A DNA stretch of 64,000 nucleotides, taken from the NCBI GenBank assembly GCA_963681505.1, contig OY811985.1:4655183-4719182 (forward strand). Direction: 5' to 3'. Under the pieces are notes generated by a model. It did not search any database. It worked only from the letters and a program-made list of their open reading frames with translations, and was not told where the DNA came from. Source of the DNA: Eunapius fragilis (Eukaryota > Porifera > Demospongiae > Spongillida > Spongillidae). Position 1 is the first letter of the stretch. Each line of letters starts with the position of its first letter. A program made the translations under genes and the position numbers. Below, in pieces: positions 9,158 through 15,980 of the stretch.

Positions 9158-9882
9158 TTAAACTTCACCCTCAGATCTGAAAAAGCCTAAACGTGAGGGT
9201 AAAGCTTGAGCATTTGCTCTCACCAGTGTTAGATTGAGACGTTGGTAGATGGTAGTGATGGCCTTGGATTTGCTACACTGCAACTGGATGGCCAGACGGG
9301 ATGCTGGCCAAGAAATGGTTGACTGGGCTTCTGCACCCCAGCAACCATAAGTCTCAACTGCTAAGGGTATAAAAACCCATCCGAGCTCTGCACACTTACG
9401 ATCATTAACACCATGTTTCCGAACTTCAGCTGCCATAGCTGCAGACCCTCTTGCAACTCCTGCTTCAGTTAAAGTAGTGAGATTAAGCGGTGAGGTTACA
9501 GTTAGGTCAAAAGCTGCTGGTTTGCCGATTATCCAGTTCTGTACAAGAATATCAGCTGGACGACTGTGTCTTTTGTCTACTCCTATGCCACAACCTACTT
9601 CAAGCTGTCCCCCAGACATGCTCGATGGCAGAACTGTGAAAAGGCATCCCTCAAGCTGTTGTGGCGTAGCACGACATCCCCTCTACCTCTACACATCACT
9701 GCATGGTGTCCTAGGTGGTCTAGCTGGTGTTCAGGACAGTATGGACAGCAAGAACCTAAAGATGTGTTCATTCCAAGCCACCACTTCAATGCAATCTGGA
9801 ACTCATCAGGTTCAAGGTGAAGGTTAAGACCTATTGTTTTATTATTTGCAGTATAATTAATTAATGTGTCATGTGACCACAA
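9158..9882 (-). pseudogene. 3' end of an R2-like (REL-ENDO) non-LTR retrotransposon, best copy
   Basis: This is the most complete copy. The first frame (9882 to about 9600) carries EFQIALKWWLGM and a zinc-knuckle-like motif, C-x2-C-x9-H-x4-C (CPYC...HHAVMC), followed by GDVVLRHNSLRDAF. A second frame (9619 to 9158) continues with SRPADILVQNW, GKPAAFDLTVTSPL, CAELGWVFIPLAVETYG and IYQRLNLTLVRANAQALPSR. A CCHC knuckle followed by a conserved RPADxLV...KPAAFDxTV block fits the C-terminal restriction-like endonuclease of R2/NeSL-type LINEs, where the aspartates and lysine would be catalytic (family knowledge). The frames join by a shift near 9600, so the copy is broken. No reverse transcriptase is present, consistent with 5' truncation. 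It could instead be a related stand-alone family. Confidence 0.65.
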
Positions 9883-10981: not shown

Positions 10982-11192
10982 TTATAAGAAAGCTGGTGAC
11001 ATATAGGATTGGAAGGCAAAAATGAAGGTAACAAGGGTCAAATAATAAGCACATTTGTAGGGCATTATGTTGTTTGTGTGCGAAAAATTGAACTATTTCA
11101 TTTTCCCTTATTATTTGGCCCTTGTTTCCTTCCTTTTTACACCACCATTGCCTTCCAATCCTATATGCCACCAACTTTCTCATTTTTAATCC
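10982..11192. mobile_element. Foldback element (MITE-like)
   Basis: The left arm AGAAAGCTGGTGACATATAG, continuing GATTGGAAGGCAAAAATGAA and AACAAGGGTCAAATAATAAG, is complementary, with indels, to the right arm at about 11100-11192. The reading frames on both strands simply read the two arms. Confidence 0.65.
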
Positions 11193-11530
11193 TTGTTCAA
11201 GGTACAAGTATTCAACATGCATACATATGGAGATTGTGTATTGACACGTATAAGTTTGTATATATAATGGTTCCTCCATCGCCCGCGCCCAAATCAGTTA
11301 TGTAGCCAATAGTTTGAGTCAGTACGCGTTTTTATATCAAAATAATAGTTGGAAACGGAAGTTCGGATCAGCAAAAACTGGCAGTGTACGGTATGACTAT
11401 TATATATTGCATACATCCCAGTGGTTTAAAACCATAGGCGATGATGACATTTGATATTTTTTATATAATAAACAATAAAATAAATGCACATATATACACG
11501 TTACTACACACGAACTTGCACAAAACTACC

Positions 11531-11845
11531 CTAGCCTTCAAGCAAGTCCATTGTTGTAGCCAACCTAGCATTGAAAGCACGGGCATTGGCTCGAACTAGT
11601 GTGAGGCTTAGTCTCCCATAGATGTTATTCAACATTATAGTCTTTGAGGAATGGCTTTGAGCCGCAAGTCGTGATGCGAGTTCTCCAAAAAACTGGCCTG
11701 CAGTTCTTCCCCAAGCACCAAACGTCTCCACCACTAATGGTACACACTTCCATCCCAATTCGGAGCAGATAGTATCATTGGATATATGCTTTCTCTCTTC
11801 TGTTTGCCTTGCTGCTGCACCTGCCACCACACCCGCTTCAGACAA
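11531..11845 (-). pseudogene. REL-ENDO retroelement C-terminal fragment, open frame
   Basis: The 104-residue minus-strand frame carries MSEAGVVAGAAA, CSELGWKCVPLVVETFGAWG and NIYGRLSLTLVRANARA, the family's C-terminal third. It is uninterrupted and ends at a stop, but lacks the upstream RPADxLV/KPAAFD catalytic block, so it is a 5'-truncated copy. Confidence 0.65.
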
Positions 11846-12149
11846 AATGTTTGATTTAATTTTATAATAATTATATTATTCCTCCACTATATACATGTAT
11901 ACATGATGTTAATAAACTAGTCCTATTAATAACTGTTACACTTTGAAAATCAAACCATAAAAATCAAGTTCTGCCTTATGTTACACAGGTATACATATGT
12001 AATAAAATGCCTAGTTACGTAGCCTTAATTAGATTTTATACTTTCCCAAAACAAAATTAATTAACTATTGCATATCATGTCACAGAAATCAAGTCAAATA
12101 TATCAAGATTCAATACATTATCATTATATACATTTTGAGATTGAAGGGG

Positions 12150-14583
12150 TCAGTTTAAGCTAGAAGAGTTACAAGCAATATCATCTACATCTTGTAGAGC
12201 AGCTCCTTCAGTAAAAACACATGCTAAAAGATGATCTTCCATTGACAACACCCACTAATAGCAGCATGTCTTTGGGGACAGGAGCGAACATTGTGCTGTC
12301 CACTGCAAAATGTGCATTTTACTATAGCTCTAAAGCCTCTCACTATTGGATCTGATTTGACCCAAAACTTTGTTAAAGCATCCGATAGATTATCTTGCTG
12401 TGTTGTTTTGCGAGCCAGCCTCTCTCGATATGTGCAAAGATTTTTGTTATTATGTTCTAGCGGTTCTTCAGACAGTACTAGTGTTCCTAAACCCCTTGAC
12501 TCATTTTTATGAATCAGTTTTGCAGAATGTGCTAGAACCTGATGAACAGATGGTGTAAAGGCTCCGCACTAGCACAGGCAAACCGGACCATCCACATTGT
12601 AAATTTGGTAAGCGAATAGGGATCACTGTTACCAACTGATTAAATTCATTGAACACAGCGGGTCGATCCGGTTTGCTTTTGCTAGTGTGGAAACGCCTTA
12701 AATCTGAAGGTAGGCCAATGAGTGACATGTTTGATTGAGGTCTCCTTGCAGAGTTGGTCAAGCTGCTCAGTGTTGACTGTTTGCTTTGACGAAATAGCTC
12801 TCAAAATGACAGAAAAGTTTGTCATAAATTCACCAAACACTTGTCTGTCACACTCTCCAACAGACCTGACTTTAAGGGGTACACAATCAATCAGTACCGG
12901 ACGGTTCTTCACATCAAAAAAGCACTTTCGTGCTATATTCCCAGTGGTAGTGGTGCCACCTGCTCCTACACTGTCTGGTGTGTCTACCCAGTTTTTTCTT
13001 TTATCAATTCTCTTACCCGCTTCTTGGCCACATCAACTCGAGCAGCTTGTTGTTGATTCTCCTTCCATGCTGTGACCCCTGCATTCAACTTATAGATGAT
13101 CTTCAAGCAGTATTCTAACCCCTCAGCAGTGCATGAAGAATAGGAAAAGTATAAACATCAAATGATGTTATAGGCTTTTGTGTTAAGCCCATTTGTTCAT
13201 CATAGTCTCCTCTGTGTTTGGAAATATCCCCATCTACTTCTAAACATTCATAAAGAGCCTTCAAAGTTACAATGTCAACATTCTCCATTTCAAAGCCTTC
13301 CTTAATCTGTTCCACTGAAACAGAATCCTAATCTGAAAAAGAGCAAAGGATACAAAATGCTCCTCCTCTTCCCAGCAGCAGTTTTTGCATTTTCCCATCA
13401 TTCATTGACCTGATAGATTGAATATCGCTTTTCCTCATCGTCAATTATCACACCACTCTTGTGCAACTCTTCAATATCTTTCAACAGGAGGAACAATTGT
13501 GCTCAGCAACACTTTGTCTTCTTTCCCCATTGTGATGAGAATTGGCCGAGCAGCATCAGGGCTATTAGGAGCACCTTCCCTCCATACCACACCACTCTCA
13601 CTTGTGCTTGCTTGCTCTTGATACTTGTATGGGCACCCACATCCTGGGTCCCCACATTGTCTTTCTGATCGTATATAGCATGCCTCCCAGAACCATCGAG
13701 GCCTTCTTTTGCTGTCATTGTGTAAATTCCAGGCTGCAATTGTAGGAGTATTATCAATCGCTGGAAGTGGATTCGTACTGATTCAATGAGGCTTAAAGTG
13801 ACTCTTGTTGCATCACTTGCAAAATGAATCATGTGCATAATTTTGTTCTTATGTTGCATGATCTTGTGATGAGCTGGTAAGCTGACCCTCTGCTTTAAAT
13901 CGTGTCTTAAACTAGTATATGCCGATCAACCAAGCTTATATGTCGAAAGCATGTGGAGTGATTCAACTAAGCTAAGTTCCGTGTCTACTGATTCTGAGTT
14001 GAAAAACTTCATGCCACCTCTATCATGAGTATAATTTTCCTAGAAAATAAGTCAGTAATACAAAAAAGTTTAACATTTATCTGTGCAATAGATATCCTAA
14101 CAGTTGTGTGGTTGTGATCATCTGCTTTTCAGCTTCCACCCTCAACTGTGAAAGCAATGCATCAGTTCTCCTCTTTGCATGCTGTTGGCTGACCTTGTCT
14201 AAAGGGCTTAGTGGTGTAAGACCTTTCTCTACCTCCTACAACAGCTGGAGGACTTTCCGGACTCTCTTTACACGAGGAAGCTGATGATAAAGGTGTATCC
14301 TGATTTTCTAGAATTGTAGCAGGCTCATAGAATACTTCTGTCTGGTAGGAGAGAAAAGCTTCTTTTGTCTTATCTAGCTTTTTAGCTCGACTCAGCTTAC
14401 TCTACTTATTCCTCAATAGACCCACTCGATTAGCCCAGTACTTTCTCAGCTTATTAACTTCCTCCTTTTCGCAAAGAAGACCTTTGTCACTGAAAAACAA
14501 GCCTGCAGCCTCCCAGTCGCTTTTAAACTTCTTTACGTATTCATCATAAGCTTCCAATTGCAGATATTTCTCTTTTCTGCCAT
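12150..14583 (-). pseudogene. RAG1-core-like DDE transposase pseudogene
   Basis: Minus-strand coding remnants run in RAG1 core order. Start MAEKRKYLQLEAYDEY at 14583; coiled-coil-like region; TMTAKEGLDGSG near 13690 (RAG1 D600-type motif); APNSPDAARPILITMGKEDK near 13550-13600 (RAG1 also has PNS then a D/E segment); AFCILC near 13350 (CxxC); KPITSFDVYTFPILHALLRG near 13130-13180 (region of D708, but the aspartate seems absent); TTGNIARKCFF near 12930; VHQVLAH near 12535 (H-x4-H); LSEEPLEHNNKNL near 12460 (E962-type glutamate); and C-x2-C-x3-H-x4-C near 12280-12310. The CxxC and H-x4-H pairs match the RAG1 zinc site, and the tail resembles the CCGHC tail of amphioxus RAG1-like proteins (memory). 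There are several frameshifts and stops, plus a MITE at 12559-12698. No terminal repeats or RAG2-like kelch gene were seen. It could be Transib-like, RAG1L, or a sister lineage. The 3' end is uncertain (12150 or 12224, depending on frame). Confidence 0.75.
12559..12698. mobile_element. 140-bp MITE inserted in the RAG1-like pseudogene
   Basis: The ends are imperfect inverted repeats: AGGCTCCGCACTAGCACAGG at the left and the complement of AGGCGTTTCCACACTAGCAA at the right. TAA flanks both sides (12556-12558 and 12699-12701), a Harbinger-type duplication. Removing the element plus one TAA leaves the pseudogene frame continuous at that point, so the insertion came after the coding sequence existed. 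A related element lies at 38786-38900. Confidence 0.75.
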
Positions 14584-15980
14584 GCCAATGGAGACACTAG
14601 AAGTAGTTTCCGCGGAATAGCACGCTTGCACGTTAATGTAACGTAACTAGTCAAAAACCCAAGCAATCGAACAGAACTTCGCATAAAACAAGAGACTACG
14701 AATACACATGCGTGCACAACACAAAATAGCGCACGGACAGCGCACAGCTTCCACAAAAGAACAAAGACGGCGCAGCCTGCCTGTGGTAGAGCAGCTATTC
14801 CAAAGCGTAGGACATAGCCCCACCTACCTAGTTATTATGAAAATTATTTGTAAATCAGTCACCGCGTTTGAACGTAAGCAGCAGCGCTAAACGAGAAATC
14901 GGTTAGAGTCGGCTACTTCGGTGTTTTGGCAACACATAGGAAAATCTATGTGTATTTTATACTTCCTACATTACGTCCTAGAATTGTCTAGAAAAGTGCT
15001 GGAAGTCGGTATTTAGGAAACGTTTTCACGTATAAAGACCCCTTCTGTAAGACTGTAACCCCCCCTGACAAAAGATTAAAAAATATACACCCTGGTTATT
15101 TCTGTGCTATCTGGTTTTTGCATAGCCATACATGTGGTAGACGGCTCACAGTAGCCATAATTCAATAGCAACCTTAACCCTCTGGACAATACCCTGATCA
15201 TTCTTCATTTTTATGAAGGTATATCATTTAATATTAACCCCTAAAAGCAAATTTTACAATTGATAGTAGCCATAATTCCATCACAAGGACGCTGGATATC
15301 TTAACCCCTGGACAATACCCTGATCGTTTATCTTTATATTTCCAAAAAGGTGAAATCATCCAGGTAGAGTATATTCACAGTGACTTCATTTAAGTCCTTT
15401 CGATGCATATCCCTTGCAATCTGCTTCACTTAACCTACTCACACACACCCCTCCCCCTTTCCCAGACATCCATATTAAACCCCCCTGGACAGCCTCTCGT
15501 TTTCATCCACCCCCCCATGTGCACTTATTTACTGGAACAGCCCAATGTCATCATCCTAGACCACTATGTACATGCATCTTCTATCTTGTTGGTGAAATTA
15601 GCATGCACTCGTCTGCATGTGTATTCCATGCAGGCTTCGCTTGCGTTCCTAATATGCATTACTAACCTCATGGGGGGAAGTTGTTCACAGCTTTCTACAA
15701 TCGGGCTGCTTTCCCGAGGCAAGGATGGTTACATTAAACTCGAGATCGAAATAAAAGCTTTTTTTTTTTTTTAGTACTGGTAATTGAAGCGCTAAAATTT
15801 GAGTTTGTTATACTCAAGTTGTTCACACTCGTGAACTGATTTCACCACCCCAATGATTCTTTGATTAAATGATGAGTGAGTAAAAATTGATTGAGCAATG
15901 GCGGGTGTATGTATATTAATTGCATGTATTGGTTGGCTTGACTTGGTATGCACAATATATAGTACAGGGCTCATTCTCAC
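14584..15980. other. Intergenic DNA with short direct duplications
   Basis: A segment at 15150-15215 with CAGTAGCCATAATTC and GGACAATACCCTGATC is repeated at 15264-15335. A poly-T run is at 15760-15772. No RAG1-type signal sequence or terminal repeat was recognised upstream of the pseudogene, and no gene was seen. Confidence 0.5.

Follow-up and report, generated by a model that had tools for sequence, protein, structure and literature searches.

A probable relic of a Transib/RAG1-superfamily transposon, and the paired short and long end signals of its family, in the sponge Eunapius fragilis

Introduction

Transib-like proteins have been reported from bacteria, fungi, plants and ctenophores and, in their hundreds, from other metazoans (PMC9435367), and one set of them, the Subgroup I Transibs, has already been proposed as intermediates between Transib and RAG1L, the RAG1-like proteins (Tao et al. 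2022, PMC9435367). Here we analyse a stretch of 64,000 nucleotides from the sponge Eunapius fragilis (contig OY811985.1, positions 4,655,183 to 4,719,182), hereafter the window, in which a decayed gene resembling the core of RAG1 had been predicted. The gene very likely belongs to a cut-and-paste DNA transposon copy, now dead, that carried a single gene; within the Transib/RAG1 superfamily its best place is with the Subgroup I Transibs. The ends of its family resemble the signals of V(D)J recombination.

Such ends bear on how the 12/23 rule arose. Outside V(D)J recombination, asymmetry of the 12/23 type was, as of 2021 and in the sections of PMC8355894 used here, known just from some Transibs, and ProtoRAG, at 27/31, was the sole asymmetric case among invertebrate RAG-like (RAGL) transposons. 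The asymmetric insect Transibs are given in those sections as D. melanogaster Transib5 and A. gambiae Transib2 and N1-N3 (after Kapitonov and Jurka 2005). AanRAGL, at 4/13, is a later case (PMC9435367).

Results

A decayed transposon copy in the window

The whole decayed copy lies on the minus strand and measures 4152 bp including later inserts (Table 1), an extent set because mutated family ends and flanks of ATGTA stand at 15568 and 11417. The family ends themselves were defined by comparing near-identical copies (loci L021-L025, and L027 with L028). Against them the window copy has two mismatches at its 12-type end (15568) and one at its 22-type end (11417), both in the correct orientation, and the identical 5-bp flanks lie directly outside each end. 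As a control for chance, ten mononucleotide shuffles of the window gave four sites of either type with at most three mismatches, and a random match of 5-bp flanks is expected about once in 1000. Three other window sites with four mismatches to the end pattern (43707, 45004 and 56230) were judged to be chance. The original prediction, which had placed the gene at 12150-14583, had therefore found the coding part of a longer element.

Its description of a broken reading frame was borne out. A tblastn search with P0001, an open-frame relative of 784 aa from locus L021 of the same genome, aligned window positions 14554-12204 in order with residues 12-753. The match falls into eight blocks; the frame switches seven times and there are five stops, one of them inside a poorly aligned stretch. 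All the landmarks that had been listed for the RAG1 core, namely KEGLDGSG, a PNSP block, CILC, KPITSFD, GNIARK, VHQVLAH, SEEPLEHNNK and a C-terminal knuckle, follow one another as listed along the minus strand, over several frames. The CAC triplet of the heptamer, crucial to cleavage by RAG and ProtoRAG according to the section of PMC8289069 consulted, is altered at both ends of the window copy (CATAGTG and CCCAGTG). With its broken frame, its inserts and an altered CAC at each end, the copy is in all likelihood inactive.

Catalytic and zinc-binding residues

Residues were numbered by profile alignment to mouse RAG1 (6v0v chain number + 264 = RAG1 number). The DDE triad at the positions of RAG1 D600, D708 and E962, and the CxxC and HxxxxH zinc pairs, are all kept in the window copy; both pairs align with the zinc site of RAG1, as had been proposed. 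The DDE residues of HzTransib, D126, D225 and E436 (as given in the part of PMC6941560 consulted), fall in the same alignment columns as the equivalents of D600, D708 and E962. The apparent absence of the D708 equivalent was a misreading that arose because LHALLRG had been set against LHCDIG, which is the H795 region of RAG1. LHALLRG aligns with H795 itself, and the D708 equivalent is the Asp of MNDGKM. From D708 to the first Cys of CxxC is 19 residues in RAG1, and the corresponding distance in P0001 is 15. Loss of D708 is ruled out by the profile alignment together with the window codon GAT (13399-13397), and the correction removes the apparent catalytic oddity of the element.

With RAG1's catalytic and zinc residues still in place, nothing points to catalytic change or domestication. 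The suggestion of a domesticated, catalytically changed host gene drew its sole support from LHALLRG taken as the D708 site, and with that Asp present, the frame broken, transposon ends with a target-site duplication (TSD) around the gene and a multi-copy transposon family to which the copy belongs, we find it scarcely credible.

The tail of the protein had been likened to the CCGHC tail of RAG1L. A zinc-knuckle-like motif, CTFCSGQHNVRSC, does stand at the C-terminus; its spacing, Cx2Cx3Hx4C, shared by the sponge copies, is one residue shorter than the Cx2Cx3GHx4C of RAG1L. Among 50 related proteins of at least 560 aa, 35 have Cx2Cx3GHx4C, three Cx2Cx3Hx4C and three another spacing, and nine have no such motif in their last 120 residues.

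End signals and their pairing

The family ends begin with CACAGTG, in line with the CACAGTG-like termini that had been suggested as worth a search, and intact ends read start with CACAGTGGTTTA. Upstream of the gene the layout is CACAGTG-12 bp-GACAT and downstream CACAGTG-22 bp-GACAT, where the values 12 and 22 depend on the chosen start of the distal block and the 10-bp difference does not. Genome-wide, CACAGTGGTTTA followed by 0-30 bases and GACAT occurs at 234 places, against two for the reversed pattern. GACAT lies exactly 12 bp past the heptamer at 109 of them and exactly 22 bp past it at 110 (controls 0), so that 219 of the 234 matches have one of these two spacers and 15 have other lengths. 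CACAGTGGTTTAAGA has 277 occurrences when one mismatch is allowed; its reversed control has 51.

We then asked how the ends are combined, taking convergent neighbours no more than 8 kb apart from 200 of the 219 places. Among the matches listed, 47 of the 48 convergent neighbouring pairs join a 12 end to a 22 end. The lone exception, a 22/22 pair, belongs to a large inverted duplication (L112, C5:11649850-11654100); this joins two 22-type ends with identical outside flank, 100 bp of which is part of the duplication. All nine pairs that enclose a transposase match have their 12 end on its upstream side. Identical 5-bp flanks were present in 24 of 30 pairs fetched, with four of the remaining six one base off, and in four of six pairs fetched earlier; L037/L038 (22/22) and L039/L040 are without an exact TSD. 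That of L021 was seen by eye, and those of L023, L027 and L028 are present, although the scan that found these elements required a TSD. Pooled, 33 duplications are 52% G+C, with a tendency towards CA[TG]TG. A search for heptamer-to-heptamer junctions of the signal-joint kind found none.

The bases before GACAT vary between subfamilies and, within a single element, tend to agree from one end to the other: over 34 pairs the mean number of matching bases is 4.12, against 1.40 in shuffled pairings, and over 13 distinct combinations 3.23, against 1.13 (0.0002 of 5000 shuffles). It could be that end types and fixed spacers are merely inherited and that the transposase does not require 12 with 22, as copies of one subfamily have common ends by descent and invertebrate RAGL has been proposed to be 'relatively insensitive to TIR asymmetry' (TIR, terminal inverted repeat; from a portion of PMC7204232). 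We regard this as rather unlikely, though well worth keeping in mind. The lengths 12 and 22 stay constant while subfamilies differ in spacer sequence and in the bases before GACAT, and the own-genome transposases P0001 and P0002, just 57% identical, both have a 22-type 3' end; asymmetric pairs are also preferred by ProtoRAG, according to the section of PMC8289069 cited above. The family ends form a 12/23-like signal pair, apparently without RAG2, and we infer that they may enforce a short-plus-long pairing rule.

Copies in the genome

Pieces of the window protein match the genome many times (at least 67 matches for a 116-aa piece and at least 57 for a 140-aa piece). L021 is 99.4% identical to L022 across 3015 bp. 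Its other long blocks match L023, L024 and L025 at 97.8-99.7% identity, save for one of 496 bp at 92.1%. A search for intact copies had been suggested, and open frames of 732-807 codons are found at L021, L022, L026 and L027. Between subfamilies 0.26-0.28 of nonsynonymous sites differ and 0.78-0.80 of synonymous sites (saturated), as expected of a selected enzyme.

Some elements stand out in other ways. The transposase frame of L023 (G000, C5) is interrupted by a G-rich repeated insert of about 0.5 kb, the copy being otherwise near-identical. Two 5.1-kb elements on C9 (2914044-2919150 and 8063039-8068146; 5107 and 5108 bp) have the TSD TATTC in both cases and look like a segmental or assembly duplicate rather than two insertions. 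Thirty-five pairs of about 1.0-2.1 kb with 12/22 ends, on many contigs, are presumably non-autonomous derivatives mobilised by the transposase.

A search for RAG2-like (RAG2L) neighbours had also been suggested. No RAG2-like gene, and no open reading frame (ORF) of at least 150 aa besides the transposase, was found in L021, L023, L027 and L028, the four elements read end to end with both ends defined, which rules out a RAGL transposon with RAG2L inside the element.

Kinship

In profile and fold comparisons HzTransib, amphioxus RAG1L and RAG1 match far above all others and a RAG1-core fold is predicted. Together with the termini, profile and fold give strong support to kinship with the RAG1 core and Transib, and an unrelated transposase family is ruled out. 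The N-terminal region is homologous to the nonamer-binding domain (NBD) of RAG1 (hhalign 94.4%, E 9e-8; reversed control 0.3%). In a tree of 39 rows, three of them RAG rows and with a program warning of long branches, the sponge copies and the window copy make up a single clade (100/99); the family as a whole stands apart from both HzTransib and RAG (93/94).

Three protein searches gave at least 7, 13 and at least 103 relatives in overlapping sets, and because there are more than 100 (P0003-P0116) the transposase family is widespread. Named relatives come from Bolinopsis microptera, Hydra vulgaris and Nymphon striatum, together with Em0020g587a, which from its prefix we take to be from Ephydatia muelleri and to which one ORF of the sponge genome is 88% identical. 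Many relatives carry a precomputed Pfam label, PF26100. Loose motif patterns find the D600 site in 48 and the D708 site in 46 of 50 longer relatives.

Two other placements within the superfamily were weighed. A ProtoRAG-like RAGL transposon that has lost its RAG2L gene would account for the tail motif of RAG1L type seen in 35 of the 50 longer relatives, for the NBD-like region, for the unlost stretch between CxxC and H795 and for the several relatives that score higher against RAG1L than against HzTransib. Yet the tree gathers RAG1 and RAG1L into a group of their own (100/100) with this family outside, the PDB profile favours HzTransib (193.7 bits against 131.6 for RAG1L), and the four end-to-end elements hold a transposase as their only long ORF; we consider this origin quite improbable. 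A canonical (Subgroup II) Transib is suggested by HzTransib being the best single solved relative, but the distance from CxxC to H795 is 70 residues in P0001 (C421-H491), near the 65 of mouse RAG1 (C730-H795) and far from the 31 of the HzTransib chain (C227-H258). With the CTT1-like tail and the separate position of the family in the tree also speaking against it, this assignment is very improbable. The features instead fit Subgroup I Transibs, and so the branch, which had been proposed as undescribed, is probably not new, while a place between Transib and RAG1L, the other half of that proposal, is plausible.

Other features of the locus

The 140-bp insert inside the coding region is, by its look, one we take to be a PIF/Harbinger-like miniature inverted-repeat transposable element (MITE). 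Minus-strand ORF fragments at 9158-9682 and 11531-11875, the latter inside the transposon copy, have a common motif, EAGVxxGxAA...ELGW..PLxVET.G.WG, without a Pfam match, and in our assumption resemble the C-terminal part of some retroelement proteins. Just outside the 3' end, at about 11000-11183, lies a palindrome-like repeat; related pieces abut both ends of the relative L021, as if the window element and L021 had both inserted in or beside copies of one MITE.

Table 1. Features of the transposon copy, in window coordinates
Feature	Position	Strand	Basis or remarks
Full transposon copy	11417..15568	-	5' end 15568, 3' end 11417; both end types matched; similarity to relatives L109/L110/L111 along length
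Target-site duplication ATGTA, 5' side	15569..15573	-	
Target-site duplication ATGTA, 3' side	11412..11416	-	
5' end signal, 12-type: heptamer CATAGTG (family CACAGTG), spacer 12 bp, GACAT	15545..15568	-	
3' end signal, 22-type, inward: heptamer CCCAGTG (family CACAGTG), spacer 22 bp, GACAT	11417..11450	+	
Transposase pseudogene	12204..14583	-	Seven frame switches and stops; homologous to P0001 residues 12-753
Asp of KEGLDGSG (RAG1 D600), codon GAT	13695..13697	-	Profile alignment
Asp of MNDGKM (RAG1 D708), codon GAT	13397..13399	-	Profile alignment
CILC (RAG1 C727/C730 zinc pair)	13343..13354	-	Profile alignment
His of LHALLRG (RAG1 H795), codon CAT	13133..13135	-	Profile alignment
HQVLAH (H937/H942 zinc pair)	12527..12544	-	Profile alignment
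Glu of SEEPLEHNNK, last Glu of SEEPLE (RAG1 E962), codon GAA	12455..12457	-	Profile alignment
C-terminal zinc-knuckle-like motif, Cx2Cx3Hx4C	12278..12316	-	Sequence
Insert inside coding region, 140 bp, ends AGGC...GCCT, TTA on either flank	12559..12698	-	
Second later insert near 3' end, few hundred bases, approximate	within 11453..11906	-	Gap in alignment to L109; carries ORF fragment 11531-11875 foreign to transposase

Discussion

Sequence and prediction give this family a RAG1-type DDE-plus-zinc fold, an NBD homologue, a zinc-knuckle-like tail, 5-bp target duplications and two unequal ends. By analogy with RAG and HzTransib, a transposase dimer would cut at the heptamers, nicking and forming a hairpin there, with excision and strand transfer to follow. 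Its anatomy suggests the NBD-like domain as the reader of the distal block; a productive pair may need one short and one long end, 10 bp or about one helical turn apart, like 12/23 in RAG. We tentatively propose that a one-protein, RAG1-like sponge transposase enforces a short-plus-long rule on ends bearing the V(D)J heptamer, through its NBD-like domain and without RAG2, a proposal that we think could well be right but would not yet favour outright. If it is true, the 12/23 principle predates RAG2 and far predates antibodies, and recently active sponge copies allow it to be tested.

Several points weigh against the overall reading of the element and its family. Activity and the pairing rule are read from sequence and prediction, and the placement with Subgroup I from the published description of that group's features. 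The search pattern itself fixed GACAT and the first 12 bp. Because spacer lengths are partly shared by descent, the 47 pairs are not 47 independent cases; the exact TSD is missing in 6/30 and 2/6 pairs, and four of the 13 distinct end combinations share no bases before GACAT, three having CCAT at the short end. As to the protein, the tail is without the Gly of the CTT1 motif, and loose H795 and E962 patterns match just 35 and 36 of the 50 longer relatives, some of which are truncated. Pfam gave neither RAG1 nor any other significant match for nine pieces of the window, and its RAG1 model matches just 4 of 13 family members. The tree holds a single canonical Transib, on a very long branch.

The sponge genome provides a large natural sample: exact ends of the two types number 109 and 110, and there are several subfamilies, copies that are nearly identical and transposases with open frames. 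It makes testable whether a lone RAG1 relative needs a short and a long end and whether an NBD-like domain reads the distal block. Among the papers found on Transib or RAG-like genes and sponges, titles and abstract openings describe no sponge Transib, although the supplement of Tao et al. may list some. What is apparently new is the sponge family, its exact spacer lengths and the genome-wide regularity of the pairing; the kind itself is known.

Compared with described systems, the sponge family has in common with vertebrate RAG1 and its 12/23 recombination signal sequences (RSS) the CACAGTG heptamer, two spacer classes about one turn apart, an NBD-like domain and the DDE and zinc residues. 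In contrast, the nonamer ACAAAAACC is unmatched, the distal block being GACAT with subfamily-specific bases before it; the spacers to GACAT are 12 and 22, not 12 and 23; no RAG2 was seen in the four elements; and the sponge system is a transposon, not a recombinase. ProtoRAG/RAG1L and AanRAGL likewise have a RAG1 core, bipartite TIRs that are asymmetric (27/31 and 4/13) and a 5-bp TSD, and the sponge tail comes near their CTT1-type tail, but they carry RAG2L and their spacing is unlike that of the sponge family. The asymmetric insect Transibs have RSS-like ends whose short and long spacers are close to 12 and 23, whereas the sponge family has the CACAGTG heptamer, a distal GACAT in place of an A-rich nonamer, and lengths of 12 and 22. 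HzTransib (PDB 6pqn-6pr5) matches in fold and DDE residues, yet its zinc region is about 35-40 residues shorter and its tail is another (CTT2, PMC9435367). Subgroup I Transibs differ in that a sponge host, as here, is not named in the main text of PMC9435367, and the sponge family departs from them in its Cx2Cx3Hx4C tail, which comes near CTT1. Their likeness lies in asymmetric TIRs, an NBD equivalent and the alpha11-alpha12 stretch (zinc Cys pair to H795), which we judge from length and alignment to be kept in the sponge family. The relatives of the sponge family include Hydra and ctenophore proteins, and the order of names in a figure legend of PMC9435367 suggests that the ctenophore proteins and Hydra Transib-9 belong to Subgroup I.
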